28,803 nt of DNA from a virus. Every line of letters begins with the position of its first letter. Within the stretch, counting starts at the first letter, position 1. The notes beneath the pieces were generated by a model. That model had not been told where the DNA came from. It saw nothing but the letters and a program-made list of their open reading frames with translations, and searched no databases. This document shows positions 3,245 through 28,803 of this stretch, in pieces. A program made the position numbers and the translations under genes. Where the stretch lies: the IMG/VR virus record IMGVR_UViG_3300032893_002748, positions 1 to 28,803 of that record. The stretch is one strand, 5' to 3'.

Positions 3245-3709
3245 TCATCCGGCTTTGATCTTCTTTAAAATACTAAAAGCACTGGCATATTCACTTAACC
3301 CATAATATAAGTTTCTATTATAAAACGGATCTCCTGGTCCACTCATTGGCGGAACCGTATAAAGACCACTAAAACCAATTCCGTTCATTATTTGAGAGTA
3401 ATATTCAGACCCTTCAAATAATGGATTTTTTTGACCCGCAGATGAATCTCCAAACGAACATTCTACTGATTTATGACTTTTATTAAATAAATGATTGGCA
3501 TATTTACATTGAGACGGTGAAACAGATGATAAAATCTTCATGTTATTTGATCTTATCTTTTCTTCTTCATTTTTGGCTTCTTCTGATGCGGAATCATCTA
3601 TTTTAGTCATTTTATCTACAGAAATTCCCGCAGATCTGCATCCGTATGGTATTGGTAATCCAAACGGGCAGGGCGTTTCTTTATTTCTTATAACTGCAAG
3701 TTTTTTCAT
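3245..3709 (-). CDS. Hypothetical protein with spaced cysteines
   Basis: This 154-residue protein is not recognised. The N-terminus carries a Cys-x7-Cys loop (CPFGLPIPYGC, residues ~14-24), and a second Cys pair spaced by 15 residues lies in the middle (CKYANHLF through ECSFGD). Together these could bind a metal or form disulphides. The C-terminal half is rich in Gly, Pro, Tyr and Ser, as seen in some virion proteins. Its ATG overlaps the stop of the upstream nucleotidyltransferase in an ATGA arrangement with no ribosome site of its own, which implies translational re-initiation and shared expression with that gene. Confidence 0.68.
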   Translation of the reverse strand: MKKLAVIRNKETPCPFGLPIPYGCRSAGISVDKMTKIDDSASEEAKNEEEKIRSNNMKILSSVSPSQCKYANHLFNKSHKSVECSFGDSSAGQKNPLFEGSEYYSQIMNGIGFSGLYTVPPMSGPGDPFYNRNLYYGLSEYASAFSILKKIKAG

Positions 3710-4641
3710 TTTGGTCGTGTTTTAAGCATTTTCTTTAGTTGTTTTTTTCTACTTTTCATTTTCTTTTTTCTAAAATCCGAGACACTTTTATATTTATCTA
3801 TATTGCTGAATAGGCCGGTTCCAGGGCCGGTTTTATTCTCGGCATAGTCATAGTTTCTAAAAAATTGAGCTTCTTTTTTATTAGCGCCAACAAGAGACCT
3901 TTTGGCAAAATATGGATATAAAGATTCGGTAATTGGTATAGATCCCCATAAATCAAGCTCATCGAATAAAGCAAGAGTATTATTCAAATTATATTTTAGG
4001 GATCTATCTATATTTTTCTTGAGAAGGGAAATATCTGCTAAAGATATATTTTTTTTATTATTTGCTATCCAGTCTTTAATATCCTGATCTATACTGAAAT
4101 TAAGTTTAGATGATAAATATATTGCCCTCATAATTCTATTTGGGTTTTCTGACATTGTTATATATGCAGGCATACATGTTTTTAATTTCTTATCATCTAT
4201 GTCTTTTAGTCCAACTCCAAGCGGGTCCTGAATATCCTGCAAATTAAAGTTTAGTAAAAGAGCATTGCATGTAAAATCTCTGCTATACATTTCTTTTTGT
4301 AAATTTGATGGATTTTCAATTCCTTTTTCTTTTAAGAATTGTTCTGCATGTGGACTAATAAAATTAGATGAAAAATCTATTTTTAAATTTCCAAAATATA
4401 TAGAAGTATGACCATCATCCATTGTTCTTGAGACAATATCAAATTTTTTTTGAAATTCTATTGATACTTCTTTCGCTAAATTATGAATGGTTTTATCGCC
4501 AGTTGTAATATCTAAATCTAAAATATTTTCTTTTTTTCCCATATATCTATCACGAGCTATACCTCCACAAATGTATGGCTGCGAAGAACCTATATTCAAG
4601 TGAATCTGTTCTATACTCTTAAGAACTTCACGAAGCTTCAT
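3706..4641 (-). CDS. CCA-adding / poly(A) polymerase family nucleotidyltransferase
   Basis: This is a class II tRNA-nucleotidyltransferase/poly(A)-polymerase head domain, whose members add CCA or A residues to RNA 3' ends. Visible motifs are ICGGIARDRYMG (residues 24-35) with the DLD carboxylates at 42-44, a third acid in KIDF (88-91), the RDFTCNAL motif (121-128) and the NPNRIMRA block (166-173). Bacterial enzymes are usually about 400 residues; this one has 311, so the body and tail are shortened. It ends in a very basic stretch (about residues 288-311, many K and R) that could hold RNA. The start has AGGAT close before the ATG and lies 1 nt after the upstream stop. It overlaps the next gene by 4 nt. 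Whether it is CCA-specific, poly(A)-specific or a tRNA-repair enzyme cannot be told here; no tRNA gene is in the window. Confidence 0.88.
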   Translation of the reverse strand: MKLREVLKSIEQIHLNIGSSQPYICGGIARDRYMGKKENILDLDITTGDKTIHNLAKEVSIEFQKKFDIVSRTMDDGHTSIYFGNLKIDFSSNFISPHAEQFLKEKGIENPSNLQKEMYSRDFTCNALLLNFNLQDIQDPLGVGLKDIDDKKLKTCMPAYITMSENPNRIMRAIYLSSKLNFSIDQDIKDWIANNKKNISLADISLLKKNIDRSLKYNLNNTLALFDELDLWGSIPITESLYPYFAKRSLVGANKKEAQFFRNYDYAENKTGPGTGLFSNIDKYKSVSDFRKKKMKSRKKQLKKMLKTRPK

Positions 4642-11830: not shown

Positions 11831-12766
11831 TTACTCCAAAGATTTAATTATATTATCTACATTTTCCGGATACATAACATTTAATATTACTCTGTGCTTA
11901 CCAGAGAAGCCAACCCCGCATCCCTCTATTGAGATTTCATCTTTATTTTTAGCTTTAGCTGGGATTGTTATATTTTTATCTCCATATATTGTCCTGACGC
12001 TTTTCTCAACGCCCCTCAAAGCATCAAGTAAAGGAATATCAATAGATGAAACAACATCTCTGCCTTCTATAGATATTTCTGGATCTTTTTCATAATGTAT
12101 TGTTATGAAGGCATCTGATACTGAATGCATTCCAAAGGCATTGCTTCCCATATAATGTCCCATCCCGGATAATCTTAATGTTTGGCCATTTCCTATTCCG
12201 GCTGGCACATTAATCATTCCGGACATTTTATCTTTTATATAGCCATTGGAATCACAGGCATCACAATCTTTTTTATTAACTTTTCCATAACATTTTGGAC
12301 AGGTTTGTATGAAAGTCATTCCATTTTGACCAGAAACAATTCTTCCTTGACCTCCACATTTATCACAGCCATTATTTAATTTAATAAAACCTTCTCCATT
12401 ACAAGAATTACATCTAACATTTCTATCGTATTCTGCCACCTTCTCGCAGCCTTTTACCGCCTCCTCAAAAGAAATATTAATATGAATATGCGGCGGCTTT
12501 TGCAATTCTATTTCTTGGTTCATATTACCAAAGAAATCCTCTATATTAAATCCAAACGGAGATGATTGTCGAGGCATATGTTTTTGAGGATTTTTCTTAT
12601 AATCTTGAATAAATTGATACGCCTCATTAATTTCTTTCATTTTGTTTGCATCACCGCCCTTATCTGGATGATTAGCAATCGCCAAATTTCTATATATTTT
12701 TTTTAATTCTTCTTCTGAAGTATTAGAGCTACATCCTAATACTTTATACGCCTTATTAATATCCAT
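11831..12766 (-). CDS. dnaJ: DnaJ (Hsp40) co-chaperone with zinc-finger domain
   Basis: This co-chaperone delivers client proteins to Hsp70 (DnaK) and stimulates its ATPase. The J domain is residues ~1-60 with the HPD motif at 33-35. The usual glycine/phenylalanine linker is shortened (about 65-82). Eight cysteines (119, 122, 134, 137, 156, 159, 168, 171) make the four zinc-finger repeats; the first two keep CxxCxGxG, the third (CPKCYGKV) and fourth (CDACDSNG) are degenerate. The substrate-binding C-terminal domain follows with VPAGIGNGQTLRLSGMG. At 311 residues it is shorter than bacterial DnaJ (about 375). No DnaK gene is in the window, so it presumably works with the host Hsp70, as phages that need host chaperones do. 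It starts 1 nt after the upstream stop with no close ribosome site. Confidence 0.95.
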   Translation of the reverse strand: MDINKAYKVLGCSSNTSEEELKKIYRNLAIANHPDKGGDANKMKEINEAYQFIQDYKKNPQKHMPRQSSPFGFNIEDFFGNMNQEIELQKPPHIHINISFEEAVKGCEKVAEYDRNVRCNSCNGEGFIKLNNGCDKCGGQGRIVSGQNGMTFIQTCPKCYGKVNKKDCDACDSNGYIKDKMSGMINVPAGIGNGQTLRLSGMGHYMGSNAFGMHSVSDAFITIHYEKDPEISIEGRDVVSSIDIPLLDALRGVEKSVRTIYGDKNITIPAKAKNKDEISIEGCGVGFSGKHRVILNVMYPENVDNIIKSLE

Positions 12767-17205: not shown

Positions 17206-20200
17206 TTAATCTTCCTCTTCCGTAAAATCAATTAATCCAAGATCATATAATTCATCTTCTATATTTGTATTTATATCATTCTTTTTGTTTTCTTTCTCTG
17301 TTTCAGGAATAATATCTATTGCTTTTGGCTTTAAGTTTTTAGAATTTGGAAGCTGCGGAGGTGGTTGAATATCATAAACTCTATCAAGCACCAAGCCAAT
17401 ATCATCTTCATAAACATTAACAGATGCAGAGAAGGCTATAGCAAGACCATCATCAAGAGCATATTTATTTTTAAATTCTCTTCTTAATTTGTCTTTTATT
17501 TCCTTTAATCTATCTGGGAAAATAGTTAAAGAGCATTGTTCGCCATGTTGGTCTTCAATTGTAGCCTTAACCATAGTCTCTCCTAAAAGCTTACTTCCTA
17601 TTTTTTTGATTTTTAATTCGAAGACACTTTTTACTTCTGCCTTAATCAATGAAATGTTTTCTTTATTTTTCATTGATTTAATTTCTTTTAGGAAGGTAGT
17701 TCTATCCGTCTTAAAGAATGTTCCATAAGCATCTATTTTATTATACTTAAACGACTCTCCAAGGTAATTTTTTTCTAGAGCATATTTTTCAGGAACACTC
17801 CAATCGTTATCTTTTGGCCAAGTATATTTAAAGTCTGCAGGATTATTCTTTTTTGACCAAGATTGTAATTTCTTTCTGTAATCTGAACAATATAAATAAA
17901 TAGTCTTTCTAGGAATACCGAAAGAATCAAAACAGCCAGCAGCCGCTAATGCCTGAATTGTATTGGACCTAACGGCATGTGAATCTACCCGTATCATAAA
18001 ATCATTAAAAGAGCTAAACGGTCTTTTTTGAACAATATCTTTAACCGCATCTTCACCAACAAATTTTAGTGCATCGAGTCCGGTTAAAATGGCATTGTTA
18101 TCAACAAGAGTGTATGTACTTTCGGAGGTATTAAGATCTGGGGGTAGTACCTTTACTCCCATTAATCTTAACTCGTGTTTTATCTTATCTATATTAACTT
18201 TAGCAATCTTCTTATTTGTAGATCTGTTTTCTGAAAGTAAGTTTGCCAGCAAGAACTCTACCGGATAGTGAGCCTTAAGATAAGCTGTTTGATAGCTTAA
18301 TAAAGAATAAGAAATAGAGTGAGCCGCGTTAAATCCGTAGGAACCGAAAGAAGATATTACCTCGTCCCAAATTTTCATTGAGATCTCTTTTGAGATATTT
18401 TTATTCTTAAGAGCATCTTCAATAAATTCATCTCTCCATTTCAGTGCCTTTTCTGGATTTTTTCCTTTTTCTTTGGTAAGTTTTCTCAATCTATCAGCCT
18501 CGTGCAATGACCATCCGGCAACATCTTGAGCTAAATACATCAAACTTTCTTCATATAGACCAAAGCCGAAAGTTTTTCCAAATGAACGCTCCAATGAGGG
18601 GTGCATTAATTTGAATTTTTTCTTACCTTCTTTGGCCTCTATAAATGATTTTCTTATATCTTTAGCAGAAGGTCTGGCCAAAGCATTAATGTGGCTTATA
18701 TCTTCAATAGATTTTGGCTTAATTTTTTTACAAAGCTCAATTGTTCCACCGCTGGTCCCTAATTGGAAAACACATAAAACATCACCTCTGGATATTAGAT
18801 CATATGTCTCTTTGTCATATTCATCATAATTTGGAGGGAATTGTTTGATTTGTTTTCCATTTTTTTTAATTAATGACAAGGCTTCATTAATAATATCTAA
18901 TGTTTCTAATCCAAGTGTATCCATTTTAACAAGGCCACATTCTTCAGCATCATTTTTATCAAGCTGTAATGCTATTGCCCCATCTTTATCCTTGCGCACA
19001 GGAACAATATGGTGAAGTGGTCTTTTTGAGATAACTACACCTGCCGCGTGTGTTGCCCAGGCCCTATTCTTACCAACTATATTAGAAAATCTTTTTAGTT
19101 GAGTATATCTTTTAGCATACTCTGAAAAAAGAGGGGCCTTTTCAAAAACATCCTTAATTGATCCGTCCTTCAAATCTTTTGGTATCGAATCAGCAATATC
19201 ATTACCCAGTTTAACAGATGCTTGCCTATCTCCGGCTAATTCGCAAGATCTTGATATATCTCTGGCGAAAACCTTTGGAGTTATAGTATTAATGTTAGAA
19301 ACATGGGCGACATATTCTGCTCCATATTTATTCTTAATATATTCTTGAACCTTATCTCTTCCAGACGGAGAATAGTCTACATCGCAGTCAGGCATACTGG
19401 TTTTAAATTTATTATGGAATCTTGCGAAAATTAGATCATACTTAATAGAGTCTACCTGATGTATTCCTATTAAATATGCCACAAGAGAGCCTGCGACAGA
19501 TCCTCTTCCTGGACCTACAGATATTCCGTTTTTTCTAGCATAATCAATCATATCTGCAACAATTAACATATAGCTAGAAAATCCGTGATATTCTAATACA
19601 TCTAATTCTTCTTTTAATCTTGCTTCGTATTCTGAAATTCTATTTGATGGAACCTTCGAATAAAAATTCTTCATACACCTAAATCTTAGGAAGGCCTTAT
19701 CTTCATCTATTTTTTTAACTTCTTCTGGTTGAGTTTTTAACCAATTTAAAAATTCTTGGTAATCTCTCTCATCTTTTACGGGAAAAACCGGTAATTCTTT
19801 TCCACTTGGATTTGTAAATTTAGGATCAATCCATTCCGGCTCCTCACACATAGAGGCGAACTCAAATGTGTTATTACAAATTTCATTGGCGAAACTATCT
19901 CCGTAATTTCTTGCAAAAAATTTAACCACCTCTTCCTCAGACTTAAGATAGAAGTCAGGAGAAGAAATATATCTTAATCTTGCATTAGAATAGGCGGGTT
20001 GCATAGCTCCGATTGCCAAAAATACATCGTGCATTTCTGCATCTTCTTTTCGCAAATAATGAGAGTTTGTTGTAGGAACTATTTTAATATTATTTTTTTG
20101 AGCAAGTCTAATTAAATGGTAGTTAGTAAAAATTTGATTTACTGGACTATGGTAAAGACTATTATTTCTCGTCAGATTATTTGCCTGAACTTCTACTGCA

Positions 20201-20718
20201 AGATTGCTACCAAATATTTCTTTTAATTTATTTAAATCTCTTTCTGCTTGGTCAAAGTTTTTTAAATTAATACTTTGAGATACTATTCCGTGGCCACAAG
20301 AAGTTAAGCATATTAGCCCATCACTATTGTTTTCTAACGAACTCCAATCAAGCAATGGCATAACTTTTTTACCAAAAATGGCAGAGTTATCATAACTTAT
20401 TTTATTTAAATAAAGTAAGTTTTTGTATCCTTTAATATTCTTGGCTATTAAATTTATGTGTCTAATTTTTTCGCTACTTGTCCCACCTATTAATGCATTT
20501 CTGTCCGAATGGAAATAAAATTCACATCCAACTATATATTTAATCCCAACCTCTTTAGATACCTTAAAAGCATCCCATACTCCTGCAAGATTGCCGTGAT
20601 CATTTATTGCAACCGCAGGCTGTCCAAGTTCTTTAGCTCTAATAAAAAGCTCCTTGGGGGTTATCAAGGAGTCTAAAATACTATAATGTGTATGATTATG
20701 AAGATTTACGAATTTCAT
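17206..20718 (-). CDS. dnaE: DNA polymerase III alpha subunit (DnaE, C-family)
   Basis: This is the replicative DNA polymerase. The PHP domain opens with LHNHTHYSILDS (H7, H9) and DHGN (40-43). The polymerase core holds GPGRGSVAGS (402-411), the catalytic acids in PDCDVD (D446, D448), HAAG (557-560) and the third acid in GLVKMDTLGL (D600). Later blocks include FNAAHSISYSLLSYQTAYLKAHYPVEFL, described in pieces, and a helix-hairpin-helix-like part; an OB-fold-like region lies near residues 1035-1110. With 1170 residues it is full-length. No separate proofreading subunit is in the window; several PHP metal-site residues are kept, so PHP proofreading is possible. The ATG at 20718 is preferred to a TTG at 20730 because MKFVNLH is the usual N-terminus of this family. 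Most phages use A- or B-family enzymes, so this is a bacterial-type choice. Confidence 0.95.
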   Translation of the reverse strand: MKFVNLHNHTHYSILDSLITPKELFIRAKELGQPAVAINDHGNLAGVWDAFKVSKEVGIKYIVGCEFYFHSDRNALIGGTSSEKIRHINLIAKNIKGYKNLLYLNKISYDNSAIFGKKVMPLLDWSSLENNSDGLICLTSCGHGIVSQSINLKNFDQAERDLNKLKEIFGSNLAVEVQANNLTRNNSLYHSPVNQIFTNYHLIRLAQKNNIKIVPTTNSHYLRKEDAEMHDVFLAIGAMQPAYSNARLRYISSPDFYLKSEEEVVKFFARNYGDSFANEICNNTFEFASMCEEPEWIDPKFTNPSGKELPVFPVKDERDYQEFLNWLKTQPEEVKKIDEDKAFLRFRCMKNFYSKVPSNRISEYEARLKEELDVLEYHGFSSYMLIVADMIDYARKNGISVGPGRGSVAGSLVAYLIGIHQVDSIKYDLIFARFHNKFKTSMPDCDVDYSPSGRDKVQEYIKNKYGAEYVAHVSNINTITPKVFARDISRSCELAGDRQASVKLGNDIADSIPKDLKDGSIKDVFEKAPLFSEYAKRYTQLKRFSNIVGKNRAWATHAAGVVISKRPLHHIVPVRKDKDGAIALQLDKNDAEECGLVKMDTLGLETLDIINEALSLIKKNGKQIKQFPPNYDEYDKETYDLISRGDVLCVFQLGTSGGTIELCKKIKPKSIEDISHINALARPSAKDIRKSFIEAKEGKKKFKLMHPSLERSFGKTFGFGLYEESLMYLAQDVAGWSLHEADRLRKLTKEKGKNPEKALKWRDEFIEDALKNKNISKEISMKIWDEVISSFGSYGFNAAHSISYSLLSYQTAYLKAHYPVEFLLANLLSENRSTNKKIAKVNIDKIKHELRLMGVKVLPPDLNTSESTYTLVDNNAILTGLDALKFVGEDAVKDIVQKRPFSSFNDFMIRVDSHAVRSNTIQALAAAGCFDSFGIPRKTIYLYCSDYRKKLQSWSKKNNPADFKYTWPKDNDWSVPEKYALEKNYLGESFKYNKIDAYGTFFKTDRTTFLKEIKSMKNKENISLIKAEVKSVFELKIKKIGSKLLGETMVKATIEDQHGEQCSLTIFPDRLKEIKDKLRREFKNKYALDDGLAIAFSASVNVYEDDIGLVLDRVYDIQPPPQLPNSKNLKPKAIDIIPETEKENKKNDINTNIEDELYDLGLIDFTEEED

Positions 20719-20726
20719 CTTGTCTT

Positions 20727-21383
20727 TCAAATAATAAATATATCATATAAATCCAGCTCATTGATGGTACTGGTATCGTGAATTATTTTCATTACTTTAA
20801 ATCTGGTTTTCCAAAAATCTTTATTTTCTGATTTTCTCGTAAGTATATTCTTTAGTTCGTCAAAATTTAATTTCTTTTTTTTATACAAGTAGTGGGCAAC
20901 CAGCTTTACATCACTCCAGTATTTAATCAGAAGATCATTGACTTCTTTTTGAACCTTCTTCTTAAATAAAAATCTTTCTTTTCCGGCAGCAGCAAAATTA
21001 CTTTTTTTAATTATTTCTGATGCATTATACAGATCATTAGATGACCCTATTCTTAAATGCATTGGAAATTGATCGGAACCACAAATATCTTTGTAGTAAA
21101 GCTTTTCTGCAACAAGTCCGGCGTAATATATCTGTAGATCAAAATATAATATTGCCTTTTGAATATCTTCTTCGCCTAATTCCTCTATTTCTATAGATAG
21201 ATATTCTGTTTTACCATCATTGTTGGATCTTTCATTCATGACATCAACATTAATAACTTTCATATAATTATGTAAGGCACATACTGCATGCCCGCTTTCA
21301 TGATATGATTGAGCTATTAATTCATAATCATAAGATTGTTTTTTTCTTATGTTAGATAAAGATGATAATTGGCAGAGGCGCAT
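20727..21383 (-). CDS. Stand-alone M41 (FtsH-type) metallopeptidase
   Basis: This 218-residue protein matches the zinc-peptidase half of FtsH: YHESGH (H28, E29, H32), an AGLVAEKL block (88-95; FtsH has GGRAAEE) and GSSNDLYNAS (113-122) whose D117 corresponds to the third zinc ligand in FtsH GASNDI. The AAA+ motor and transmembrane helices of FtsH are absent. AGGA 5 nt before the ATG is a good ribosome site. It is followed directly by dnaE and preceded by two small unknown genes and trigger factor. It would cleave proteins in the cytoplasm, perhaps guided by another ATPase or acting on unfolded ones; phage lambda is known to interact with host FtsH through other proteins. Substrates are unknown. 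Confidence 0.85.
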   Translation of the reverse strand: MRLCQLSSLSNIRKKQSYDYELIAQSYHESGHAVCALHNYMKVINVDVMNERSNNDGKTEYLSIEIEELGEEDIQKAILYFDLQIYYAGLVAEKLYYKDICGSDQFPMHLRIGSSNDLYNASEIIKKSNFAAAGKERFLFKKKVQKEVNDLLIKYWSDVKLVAHYLYKKKKLNFDELKNILTRKSENKDFWKTRFKVMKIIHDTSTINELDLYDIFII

Positions 21384-21390
21384 TTATATC

Positions 21391-21666
21391 CTATATTGAT
21401 GCTAATATTTCTTCTACTTTTAATATACTATCATCACATTTATTATTCTTGCATTTAATTTGTAATGAGTTTCCGCCAAATGGACCTATAACAATTAAAT
21501 CATTATTCTCTGCATAGAAAAAACCTGATTTAGAATAAGACTCATTTGCTATAAATCCATTATTGGCGAAAATACTGATAAAATTATGAAGAACTGACGA
21601 ATCAAGTTCTAAAGTGGTTCTGGAATTACCACAACAAGATTTAATAATGTTTCTTTTTGATTTCAT
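21391..21666 (-). CDS. Small hypothetical protein between trigger factor and M41 genes
   Basis: This 91-residue protein is not recognised. It has a Cys-Cys pair near the N-terminus (KSCCGNSR) and a second Cys-x4-Cys (CKNNKC) near the end, which may bind metal. The middle looks beta-rich (FFYAENNDLIVIGPFGG). The ATG at 21666 overlaps the upstream stop as ATGA; a longer reading to 21705 would overlap that gene by 43 nt and has no ribosome site, so 21666 is chosen. Its stop is 7 nt before the M41 gene. Confidence 0.65.
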   Translation of the reverse strand: MKSKRNIIKSCCGNSRTTLELDSSVLHNFISIFANNGFIANESYSKSGFFYAENNDLIVIGPFGGNSLQIKCKNNKCDDSILKVEEILASI

Positions 21667-21938
21667 CCAACGACAACGCCACGGTCCTGAAGAACATGGA
21701 GGCAATATTTAATTTTGGCAGTTTCAGTTGCCTTGGCATCCCTGAAGGGCTGTGAGATATTCTTTAAATTTTCTCTTGCTCTCGTCAGCTCCTCATTGTT
21801 TTCTCGCTCGTGGTCTATCTCGTATATATGTCGCTCGGATTCAAGAATTTTTGACTTTAACTCTTCGGTATCAGCCGCTGCCATATTATCAGCAAAACCC
21901 TCTGGTAATTTCTTTAAAAATTTATCTGGAAAACTCAT
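21663..21938 (-). CDS. Small hypothetical helical protein, higher GC than neighbours
   Basis: This 91-residue protein is not recognised. It starts MSFPDKFLKKLPEGFADNM and then forms a long charged helix (about residues 22-55) with EELKSKILESERHIYEID and ENNEELTRARENL, ending in KIKYCLHVLQDRGVVVG. No motif is visible. GC is about 43% over bases 21721-21900, above the ~27-33% common nearby. Being placed directly after trigger factor with the next gene overlapping by 4 nt, it is probably co-expressed with the proteostasis genes. Confidence 0.68.
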   Translation of the reverse strand: MSFPDKFLKKLPEGFADNMAAADTEELKSKILESERHIYEIDHERENNEELTRARENLKNISQPFRDAKATETAKIKYCLHVLQDRGVVVG

Positions 21939-21954
21939 TCTATTCTACCTTTCT

Positions 21955-23187
21955 TTATTCTAAAATTGTTGAATTTCTTTTTATAAAATCAATAGTATAT
22001 TCGTCTCTTGCTCTTGACATAAGCATTTGCATTTGACCGCTATTTATAAGATTATTGATTAGTTCATCAACATTCTCATTATATCCCTTAAATTTATCTT
22101 TAATAATATTTAAAACTTCTTCATCTGTTAATTGGCTATCTGGCTCCTCACCTCTAACCTTTTCAAGAATTAAACTTAATTTAATATTATTTTCTATAAT
22201 CTGAGAAATTTTCATCTTCTCTTCATCTGTGGCATTTTGTGCATTCATTCTTGTAAGATTTTGCTGCAACTCATCTCCAACCATCCAGGCAGGAACATTT
22301 ATTTCGTGGCTTTCAATTAATCTATTATTAATCTGATCATAATAATATTGATTTTCTAATTCCTGAAATTTTTTAGATGCCATTAAATTAATCTGATTGA
22401 TTAAATCACTAATTGTCTCTAATCCAAATTTTTTGGCAAGCGAATCATCTAATGCTGCAGGGTGTTTTTTTGTTCCATTTTTTAATGTGGCAACAAAATG
22501 AACTCTTTTGCCAGCATATTTTGAATTATCTTCTTCTTTTATAAGAACATCAAATTCTCTGGTTTCTTCAAGCTTCATACCAAGTAAATTATCATCAAAA
22601 AGATTTGATTGACCAATTGTCATTAGCTCGCCTTGTGCAGATAGTTCTTCAACCATATCGCCTTCAATATAGCCATTATAATCAACTATGATAGAATCTT
22701 TCAATTGAACAAAGTCATCATTTGTGAAAGGAACAGTATCTCCGCTTTGATTTCTTAAATCTTCGAGCATTAAGGCAGCAATATCTTCTACGCTCTTTTC
22801 TGCATGATACGGAGGAATTTCAAAGCCCTTATACTGTTTTAATTCAAACTCTGGTAAAGTAAAAACATTAAATTCCATAGAAAAAACATCATCTTTTAAA
22901 TCTATAGATATTATATTTGGATTTCCGATCGGCTTAATTTTTTTCTCTGATATGATTTCCATAAAGGCATCTCTTGCCATTTCTATTTTAGCTTGCTGAT
23001 CTATTTCTTTTTTATAGACGCTTCCTATAATATTAGATGGGGCCTTTCCTTTTCTAAATCCTTTAACTTTTATGTCTTTTAATGATGAAACTATTTCTAT
23101 TTTTTTAGAATTAGATTTTTCATTATTAGATGTATATTTAATATTAAGTTTACACGGCTCTAATTCATTTATCTCTATATTCGACAT
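21955..23187 (-). CDS. tig: Trigger factor (ribosome-associated chaperone/PPIase)
   Basis: Trigger factor binds the ribosome exit tunnel and shields nascent chains. From the ATG at 23187 the ribosome-binding signature GFRKGKAP falls at residues 43-50, the same place as in the bacterial protein. A peptidyl-prolyl isomerase-like domain lies at about 165-250 (DSIIVDYNGYI, GMKLEETREFDV, KYAGKRVHFVATL, followed by HPAALDDSLAKKFG), and a helical chaperone C-terminus follows (VPAWMVGDELQQ, LIESHEINVPAW). 410 residues is close to the usual ~430. The ATG has AGAGGT 4 nt upstream; a TTG at 23205 is not needed. Phage-encoded trigger factor is unusual, and it heads a small cluster with an M41 peptidase. 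It could compete with host trigger factor for ribosomes. Confidence 0.92.
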   Translation of the reverse strand: MSNIEINELEPCKLNIKYTSNNEKSNSKKIEIVSSLKDIKVKGFRKGKAPSNIIGSVYKKEIDQQAKIEMARDAFMEIISEKKIKPIGNPNIISIDLKDDVFSMEFNVFTLPEFELKQYKGFEIPPYHAEKSVEDIAALMLEDLRNQSGDTVPFTNDDFVQLKDSIIVDYNGYIEGDMVEELSAQGELMTIGQSNLFDDNLLGMKLEETREFDVLIKEEDNSKYAGKRVHFVATLKNGTKKHPAALDDSLAKKFGLETISDLINQINLMASKKFQELENQYYYDQINNRLIESHEINVPAWMVGDELQQNLTRMNAQNATDEEKMKISQIIENNIKLSLILEKVRGEEPDSQLTDEEVLNIIKDKFKGYNENVDELINNLINSGQMQMLMSRARDEYTIDFIKRNSTILE

Positions 23188-23191
23188 ACTT

Positions 23192-23197
23192 ACCTCT
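23192..23197 (-). promoter_or_regulatory. Ribosome binding site that decides the trigger factor start
   Basis: AGAGGT lies 4 nt before the ATG at 23187 and directly after the TAG of the nuclease gene, favouring ATG over the upstream TTG. Confidence 0.6.
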
Positions 23198-24035
23198 ATT
23201 CCCAATTTGTTATTCCAGTTTTTTGTTTTCCTCGACCTAAAAAGGCCAAACCATCTTTACAGTTGCTTAAAAAATCACAATATTCACACAATTTACTTGG
23301 TTTTGCGCGAAATAATTTATCTGACAAAATTTCTTCTGCATATTTTTCATATTTATCTTTTATTTTTAATGTCTCTTCTCTATCAAATTCTCTTGTAAGA
23401 AACTCAAAATTATGTCTTAAAAGAATATAAGATCCTCTTATTTTAAGAATATCAGGATTTTCTAAAAACAAAATATAAGCATATGTTTGCAATTGAAAGA
23501 AATCATCCTTTAAATATTTTTTTTGCTTTGTAGTCTTATAGTCGGCCACATGAAGCATATTATCACCATCAACTTGTATTCTGTCAATGGCTCCGGTTAA
23601 AATTAACCGATCTTTTATATTTATAGTAAATCTTTTCTCTACCGCTATAACCCGACTGGGCTCAGATATCCCGCTAGAGCTCTTAATACTATATAGCCTC
23701 TTGAGATAATTGTCAAGGATCTTCTTGGCTTCTTGTTTTATTTCATTAGTAAGTTTTACCTTATATTTAACAAGAGCCTCCTTATATACAGAAGACATTA
23801 CTACATTATATTTTAATGTCGATCCATTTATATAAGCAATATGAAAATTCTCAAGAACTTCATGAACAAAAGTTCCAAGAATATGATGCTCCCATTCTTT
23901 TTTGGGCAACTTATCAATATAAGAAAATTTATACTGAGCGGCGCATGTATCGTAGCATTTAACTTTACTTACGCTTAATCTAAAATCTTCTAATATTTTT
24001 TCTTTATTTTCAAATAATTCTAATTGATCATTCAC
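23196..24035 (-). CDS. PD-(D/E)XK nuclease with Fe-S cluster (AddB/Cas4-like)
   Basis: This 279-residue protein belongs to the RecB/Cas4/AddB PD-(D/E)XK nuclease group. Visible motifs: LSVSKVKCYDTC at the N-terminus (C27, C31), GTFVHEVLE (54-62), catalytic GAIDRI (D151) and VADYKTT (D165, K167), and QLQTYAYIL (181-189). The C-terminus has C250, C253 and C259 which, with one N-terminal Cys, would hold a 4Fe-4S cluster that clamps DNA. Such enzymes chew DNA ends. It is followed by trigger factor 8 nt away and shares the strand with SbcC/SbcD, so a role in end processing for recombination is likely. There is no CRISPR array, so a Cas4 role is not supported. It ends in TAG. Confidence 0.9.
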   Translation of the reverse strand: MNDQLELFENKEKILEDFRLSVSKVKCYDTCAAQYKFSYIDKLPKKEWEHHILGTFVHEVLENFHIAYINGSTLKYNVVMSSVYKEALVKYKVKLTNEIKQEAKKILDNYLKRLYSIKSSSGISEPSRVIAVEKRFTINIKDRLILTGAIDRIQVDGDNMLHVADYKTTKQKKYLKDDFFQLQTYAYILFLENPDILKIRGSYILLRHNFEFLTREFDREETLKIKDKYEKYAEEILSDKLFRAKPSKLCEYCDFLSNCKDGLAFLGRGKQKTGITNWE

Positions 24036-24071: not shown

Positions 24072-25052
24072 TTAAAATAATGCTCTTCTCTGGAAAGGTA
24101 TCCATTTAAATACATATTTGGAATCTCTCGGATAAACAATTTGAGACAAGTCATTAATAGATTGATTTGGTTGATATTGATATTTAGATATTATCCATCT
24201 GCCAACAGTATTATCATAGAAATAATTAGTAATATCATTGGTTCTTGCATTATAATATGATCTTAAATAAGATCCTCCTCCGGCATTAGCTTCACTGGCA
24301 GAGGTCATTAATTTATTTCCATTTATAACTATTTCAGGATTTTCTAATGTAAAATATTGTCTATTAATCATTAATGGATCTCCCGGTCCCTCGCTTGACG
24401 CATCCTGATAAACAACCATTGCCTTTGGATTAAAGATCTTATCACTCCTACTGCTTATTTCTTGCCTATAATCCTGGGGGCCATCATTATCTAAAATCTT
24501 ACTTTGTGGGAGAGTTCCTATGCCCGGTCCAGTCTTCCCCTGCCAATCGCTTTCAGAATATACGAGTTGATAATTTATAAGCTGTTGATTAGTAAAAGTT
24601 GTTGGCTGTCCATTAGCATCATACGCATTTGGTATAGACGGTAATGTTGGGTTAAGCACCGTAATTCCAGTATTTGCTGGATTATCATATTCAACATCTG
24701 GTGTCGGAGAATTAGTGCCAAATGGAAATAAACTAACATTAGAATTTGGACTTAAGTTATTTACCTGCGCCCTGGGCATTCTTGTATTATTTAATATATC
24801 TGTTTGATATGTTTTTGTAAATATAGATGAACTATTAACTCCATCTGTAGCAAACACAGAAAAAGTGATATTATCAGCATTTTGTGGCATCATAATCGGC
24901 TCTGTATAAACCGTTGATGAAGTGCTTGGTTGTGTTCCATCAAGAGTATAAAAAATAATTGACGGTGAGCTTGTCGCAACAGTTATGCTTCTCGGTATAC
25001 CAGAGATTACCTCATCCTTTGACTCTGTAATTGTTAAGCTTATTACCGACAT
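24072..25052 (-). CDS. Virion-like protein with chitobiase C-terminal-type domain
   Basis: The N-terminal ~80 residues match the CHB_HEX_C_1-type beta domain seen in phage tail and host surface proteins: IIFYTLDGTQPSTSSTVY then TEPIMM. The rest (about 85-326) is rich in Asn, Ser, Pro and Tyr, as tail or baseplate proteins often are, and ends PFQRRALF. No enzyme motif is visible. It is a structural-looking gene sitting among nucleases and a kinase, which is out of place. The start follows GTGGTA a few nt upstream and the neighbour's stop is 3 nt away. The carbohydrate-binding or tail role is inferred. Confidence 0.75.
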   Translation of the reverse strand: MSVISLTITESKDEVISGIPRSITVATSSPSIIFYTLDGTQPSTSSTVYTEPIMMPQNADNITFSVFATDGVNSSSIFTKTYQTDILNNTRMPRAQVNNLSPNSNVSLFPFGTNSPTPDVEYDNPANTGITVLNPTLPSIPNAYDANGQPTTFTNQQLINYQLVYSESDWQGKTGPGIGTLPQSKILDNDGPQDYRQEISSRSDKIFNPKAMVVYQDASSEGPGDPLMINRQYFTLENPEIVINGNKLMTSASEANAGGGSYLRSYYNARTNDITNYFYDNTVGRWIISKYQYQPNQSINDLSQIVYPRDSKYVFKWIPFQRRALF

Positions 25053-28155: not shown

Positions 28156-28803
28156 TCAATCCTTAATTGTATTAAACTCTTCTATAATTGAAGAGGCTAA
28201 ATTAATAAAATCACTTCTAATATCTTCTTCTATTTTGTTTTCTGCATACATTTTAATAGCAATAGAAGTATTAACTGTATTATCTAATTGTATAGATGAT
28301 GTCTTTTTGATAGGAGATATTTTTCTTTCCTCACAAATTCTAAACACACTAAATGCCCCCAATGATAGAATGAACTCCTCTATTTTAGGACGATCTATAG
28401 TTGGAGTATCTGGATTATTTAATAACACATTAACTCTGACTATAGCCTTTTTGAAATCATTATTTGATGATACTATATTAGAAATAATGTAAGAGGTAGT
28501 ATCTTTTATATCTGACGGAACATCTATATTTACTTGAACTAATGGTCTATTAGGAAGTGTTAATTCTTTAAAGAAGAATTCATCTTTAGTATCCAATATA
28601 ATTATTTGTTTTTTATGTTGAGCTTCTGAAAAATTAGAAAAATCCATACTGCCAATATGTGCTACTCTCGTTGGATATTCTGATAAAACTTGCGGCTTAT
28701 GAACATGTCCCATCCAAACATAATCGTATCCGTTAAACATATCTACTGGACAATATAATTCGTTTGACATATCATCTATTTCATCTCCTACCGGAATAGA
28801 TCC
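28156..28803 (-). CDS. sbcD: SbcD/Mre11-like nuclease subunit, C-terminal part (N-terminus cut)
   Basis: The frame is open at the right edge and reads GSIPVGDEIDD before the internal Met, so the gene continues outside. The visible part has the last phosphoesterase motif YDYVWMGHVHKPQ and the HIGSMDFSNFSEA segment typical of SbcD/Mre11, then a capping domain and a helical C-terminus (EEDIRSDFINLASSII). The metal ligands D and H of the first motifs are not in the window. It stops 6 nt before the SbcC start, as in T4 47/46-type pairs. Confidence 0.9.
   Translation of the reverse strand, partial: GSIPVGDEIDDMSNELYCPVDMFNGYDYVWMGHVHKPQVLSEYPTRVAHIGSMDFSNFSEAQHKKQIIILDTKDEFFFKELTLPNRPLVQVNIDVPSDIKDTTSYIISNIVSSNNDFKKAIVRVNVLLNNPDTPTIDRPKIEEFILSLGAFSVFRICEERKISPIKKTSSIQLDNTVNTSIAIKMYAENKIEEDIRSDFINLASSIIEEFNTIKD

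Follow-up and report, generated by a model that had tools for sequence, protein, structure and literature searches.

A trigger factor gene conserved across a lineage of uncultured huge phages

Huge phages are known to supply parts of the translation machinery, with genes reported for bS21, L7/L12, peptide deformylase, and initiation and elongation factors (PMC7162821), and phage-supplied folding factors have been described as T4 gp31, the Hsp60 and DnaJ of jumbo phages and the DnaK/DnaJ of moraphages, including J-domain proteins in phages that lack a DnaK of their own (PMC7824862, PMC12619734). These folding factors are described as acting after release from the ribosome or in assembly, whereas trigger factor (TF) acts at the ribosome; TF goes unmentioned in the chaperone passages of these last two papers, neither TF nor a chaperone appears in the main text of PMC7162821, and a Southern Ocean virus survey states that no TF analogues were found (PMC8407431). 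Our full-text search of 5.39 million open papers returned no report of a phage TF, and an unremarked prior annotation may exist in supplementary tables or subscription papers. Phage ribosomal proteins and translation factors are thus known, and control of the chain at the tunnel exit has been little considered. Here we describe a TF gene in the window, by which we mean the whole stretch of DNA analyzed, a virus contig of 28.8 kb (28,803 nucleotides). Its lineage belongs to the same class of viruses as the huge phages of PMC7162821 and shares with them phage-supplied translation parts, deformylase and bS21 among them, and differs in that every large member also carries a TF.

To place the gene among known families, we compared its 410-residue product with curated profiles and solved structures (Table 1), and the original prediction of a full-length TF in a phage was borne out. 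The NCBI equivalog for tig, TIGR00115, scored 206 bits over residues 36-402 (E 8.6e-61), above its cut-off of 180.2, and the same cut-off was exceeded by 13 of 14 relatives, with only L068 falling below it. The two Pfam domains scored above cut-off, Trigger_N with 82.2 bits and Trigger_C with 35 bits, and were present in all 13 aligned phage copies. A sequence search of solved structures returned Escherichia coli TF (PDB 1w26) as the best match (E 4e-25), and the same structure was the top Foldseek match among 350,542 PDB chains (E 3e-22, TM 0.72) for an AlphaFold2 model built on the alignment of 13 phage copies (mean pLDDT 87.7). A PHROGs family of unknown function, phrog_26774, also matches the protein. 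We conclude that the open reading frame encodes a real trigger factor. Its start is an ATG at 23187 on the minus strand, and Shine-Dalgarno-like motifs precede 60 of the 65 phage TF genes. Relative to bacterial TF (tig), the phage protein keeps the three-domain order, the predicted fold, the GFRxGK loop and a length within about 25 residues, whereas it is only about 21% identical on average, has a first arm about 9 residues shorter, and is encoded away from clpP-clpX.

Table 1. Positions of the trigger factor gene, its parts and selected neighboring genes in the window.
Feature	Position	Strand	Evidence
Trigger factor (TF), 410 aa	21955..23187	minus	TIGR00115; Trigger_N and Trigger_C; AlphaFold2 model with 1w26 as top Foldseek match
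N-terminal ribosome-binding domain (Trigger_N, residues 3-138)	22774..23181	minus	Pfam
Signature loop GFRKGKAP (TF residues 43-50)	23038..23061	minus	all 59 phage TFs keep G43 and R45
FKBP-like middle domain (about residues 150-245), pocket eroded	22453..22740	minus	Foldseek FKBP matches; residue comparison
Helical chaperone domain (Trigger_C, residues 259-403)	21979..22413	minus	Pfam; helices in AlphaFold2 model
Shine-Dalgarno-like AGAGGT, 4 nt upstream of TF ATG	23192..23197	minus	sequence
PD-(D/E)XK (RecB/Cas4-like) nuclease, immediately upstream of TF	23196..24035	minus	PF12705, 110.7 bits; 63/64 relatives
Small, helical, acidic protein immediately downstream of TF	21663..21938	minus	homologue in 63/64 relatives; no Pfam family
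Second small conserved protein, likely start at in-frame ATG 21666	21391..21705	minus	homologue in 64/64 relatives
DNA polymerase III alpha (DnaE)	17206..20730	minus	profile matches; 64/64 relatives
DnaJ-type co-chaperone, HPD motif	11831..12766	minus	PF00226 and PF01556; J domain in 20/20 large relatives
Large terminase, running off contig end	3..1649	minus	phrog_675, 1e-49; 51 relatives in IMG/VR

Evaluating the distribution of this gene across 2.9 million IMG/VR viral contigs, we obtained no match when scanning with the TF of the window as a single sequence; the route that worked led through relatives of the terminase and then used the alignment of 13 TF sequences as a profile. Among 26 related records, every contig of 45 kb or more (14 of 14) gave a TF match to TIGR00115, and the 12 shorter fragments gave none. 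The profile scan of the full collection revealed 64 TF loci, on contigs some of which are near-copies of one another. A second viral scan with an alignment of bacterial TFs yielded five loci, three of which belonged to the phage clade (one already known), bringing the total to 66 relatives, all from one uncultured huge-phage lineage with contigs up to 481 kb; the remaining two, a tig-clpP-clpX locus and a Pseudomonas-like TF at a contig end, were rejected as not of this clade. A search for the gene order in other phages recovered the same arrangement in the 64 loci, which read on one strand SbcD, SbcC, dNMP kinase, a small gene, an Fn3/chitobiase-C protein, the PD-(D/E)XK nuclease and TF, followed by two small genes, often an M41-peptidase-like gene, DnaE, two more genes and RecA. 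TF is therefore a core gene, universal in one uncultured huge-phage lineage, rather than a stray capture. The expectation that a phage TF would be rare holds in that it was not found elsewhere in the viral collection, but does not hold inside this lineage.

The remainder of the window contig is consistent with this placement. Terminases 43-63% identical to its own occur on contigs as long as 452 kb, and the nearest terminases in the cultured-phage collection are only about 25% identical, such that the lineage lacks a close relative there. When reverse-complemented, the first 127 bases of the window match the start of contig L052 exactly. This overlap resembles an assembly k-mer, and L052 encodes a portal protein (phrog_16240) adjoining the terminase; beyond window position 28803, we looked for an adjoining contig and found none. 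Terminase and portal thus accompany the TF, and the clade includes contigs over 200 kb, as in tailed huge phages.

Phylogenetic analyses of the TFs revealed one phage clade lying outside all sampled bacterial TFs and inside no bacterial genus, both in FastTree with 59 non-identical phage and 73 bacterial sequences (support 1.0) and in IQ-TREE under a mixture model with a reduced set of 29 phage and 46 bacterial sequences (SH-aLRT 100). The bacterial sample consisted of the matches most similar to the phage TFs and was weak in Bacteroidota and Patescibacteria. Mean identity was 45% among phage TFs, 21.5% between phage and bacterial TFs, and 29% among bacterial TFs, with the bacterial TFs closest to the window copy reaching about 25% over the aligned length and 31% in the best local segment. 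Because the phage stem is long, the root of the tree and the bacterial donor are not fixed, and the pattern reflects an old and probably single acquisition that the lineage then passed on vertically, or else a donor group outside the sample. Between moderately close phage pairs, dN/dS ranged from 0.05 to 0.19 and was mostly below 0.13, which indicates purifying selection.

Conservation was unevenly spread over the protein. The loop GFRKGKAP lies at residues 43-50, exactly as the original prediction had it, and across the 59 phage TFs (E. coli numbering) G43 and R45 are each invariant (59/59), with G47 retained in 53, and F44 and K48 each in 52. Only 21 columns of the whole phage TF are nearly invariant, G43 and R45 among them, and this conservation was not built into the search, since the search patterns of the viral scan that yielded the phage TFs lay outside the loop. 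P50, by contrast with bacterial TF, is relaxed and kept in only 16 of 59. The isomerase pocket, whose residues we take to be those transferred from FKBP12, also departs from its bacterial counterpart, with position 194 deleted in 58 of 59 phage TFs, F185 changed to E in 44, Y221 replaced in nearly all, and V or I at F177 in most, whereas F198 (55/59) and F233 (47/59) are kept. The prediction of a PPIase-like middle and a helical C-terminus stands with one refinement: Trigger_C and an FKBP-like fold are present, but Pfam FKBP_C, which scores in 10 of the 13 aligned copies, does not score in the window copy, and the pocket is eroded. Judged from these residues, the prolyl-isomerase activity of the phage TF is probably weak or lost, an activity that is not essential to TF function (PMC5402958). 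With the loop kept and the pocket eroded, the phage therefore seems to retain docking and cradle and to have given up the isomerase, and the family offers a natural experiment on which parts of TF matter. Separately, all 59 phage TFs share Cys12 (window 23152-23154), a residue that only 15 of 73 bacterial TFs possess.

Searching the 20 largest TF-bearing contigs, with control genomes giving the expected results, revealed peptide deformylase, bS21 and a J domain in every one (20/20 each), whereas profile searches for Hsp70 (DnaK) and Cpn60 (GroEL) found neither in any of the 20. On the TF strand of these contigs, deformylase lies 8.2-11.1 kb and bS21 11.6-24.0 kb upstream of TF, and DnaJ 9.7-16.1 kb downstream; the window contig stops short of the expected deformylase and bS21 positions, such that both are known only from relatives. 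SecA carries the SEC-C motif as a metal-binding tail at its C terminus, and a cysteine-rich, SEC-C-type C-terminal tail occurs on 19 of the 20 deformylases (L232-L251), e.g. CICGSGKKYKKCC, with only L233 lacking it. Such a tail may tether the deformylase at the ribosome.

Together, the presence of TF throughout the lineage suggests that the phages supply a helper of their own for newly synthesized proteins, and we consider it likely that the phage TF, inherited vertically, docks on host uL23 at the exit tunnel and shelters nascent chains together with the phage deformylase, bS21 and DnaJ. During infection, the N-terminal loop, through R45, would dock on uL23 of the host ribosome, the helical C-terminal arms would cradle the emerging chain, the deformylase (SEC-C-tailed in most copies) would strip the formyl group, and DnaJ would hand the chain to DnaK of the host, since no phage Hsp70 was found. 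The analysis shows homology, fold, conservation of the loop, gene order, co-occurrence and purifying selection; binding to the ribosome, cooperation among the four proteins, and a benefit to or preference for phage proteins are inferred, and the conserved docking loop supports the predicted action at the exit tunnel. A stronger version, in which bS21 would mark or favor ribosomes, the SEC-C deformylase would be held there, the phage TF would replace that of the host, and chains would pass to phage DnaJ and on to host DnaK as one dedicated takeover set, is something we entertain only tentatively and believe somewhat less than its negation; if true, these phages would possess a specialized version of the entire co-translational maturation pathway. 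The lineage-wide combination of TF, deformylase, bS21 and DnaJ makes viral takeover of co-translational folding testable.

Some observations run against a ribosomal role, in that P50 is so rarely kept, F44 is lost in 7 copies, and the TF gene has replication and repair genes around it, lying between nuclease and DnaE and adjoining neither deformylase nor bS21. Off-ribosome roles of bacterial TF are established, and the relaxed P50 and the gene neighborhood would likewise suit a phage TF working mainly away from the ribosome, as a chaperone in the assembly of abundant virion proteins or of large replication complexes. We nonetheless regard this as unlikely, as G43 and R45, known for ribosome docking, are invariant in 59 divergent copies and two ribosome-linked proteins, deformylase and bS21, are conserved alongside TF. 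Rather less probable still is that the phage TF acts as a competitor that occupies the exit site, blocks host TF or other tunnel factors, and damps host protein maturation instead of aiding the phage; retention of the loop with erosion of the pocket, and the supply of a set of tunnel-side proteins, would fit such a role, but the N domain alone could suffice for a pure blocker, and the C-terminal chaperone domain retains its full length, is conserved and is under purifying selection. That the gene comes from bacterial DNA and was misassembled or wrongly filed as viral, a contamination already thought unlikely at the outset, deserves practically no credence: misfiling does happen, as the cultured-phage collection illustrates, but here synteny and tree refute it, with a phage neighborhood shared by 64 contigs, a terminase on the window contig, a 127-bp overlap with a portal-bearing contig, and a phage-only clade.

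The cultured-phage collection held 25 records with a TF match, of which we inspected 11, the other 14 being mostly short unannotated contigs. Bacterial clpP and/or clpX adjoined TF in 10 of the 11, and the 10 TFs placed in the tree all group among bacterial TFs; because of these neighbors and this placement we rejected them as phage TFs and consider them misfiled bacterial DNA. Examples of such tig-clpP-clpX operons on bacterial chromosome pieces filed as phage are CAKLQH020000005.1 and MT835536.1.

Further observations concern the neighboring genes. The two small proteins encoded downstream of TF are possible TF partners, and the second carries a conserved CC near its start. An M41 (FtsH-type) peptidase-like protein (window 20727-21383) with HESGH and no AAA domain scores just below the Pfam cut-off and occurs in 51 of 64 relatives, while a chitobiase-C/Fn3-associated protein (window 24072-25052; 63 of 64 relatives) places virion- or surface-type domains amid the replication-repair cluster. 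The same contig carries a further translation-linked gene, a homologue of the CCA-adding tRNA nucleotidyltransferase (window 3706-4641). Finally, the DnaE match is split or lengthened in L054, L071, L072, L075, L076, L078, L088, L098, L119, L122 and L127, and some relatives (L047, L049, L050) have a terminase gene longer by about 400-500 bases, which suggests inteins or other inserts.
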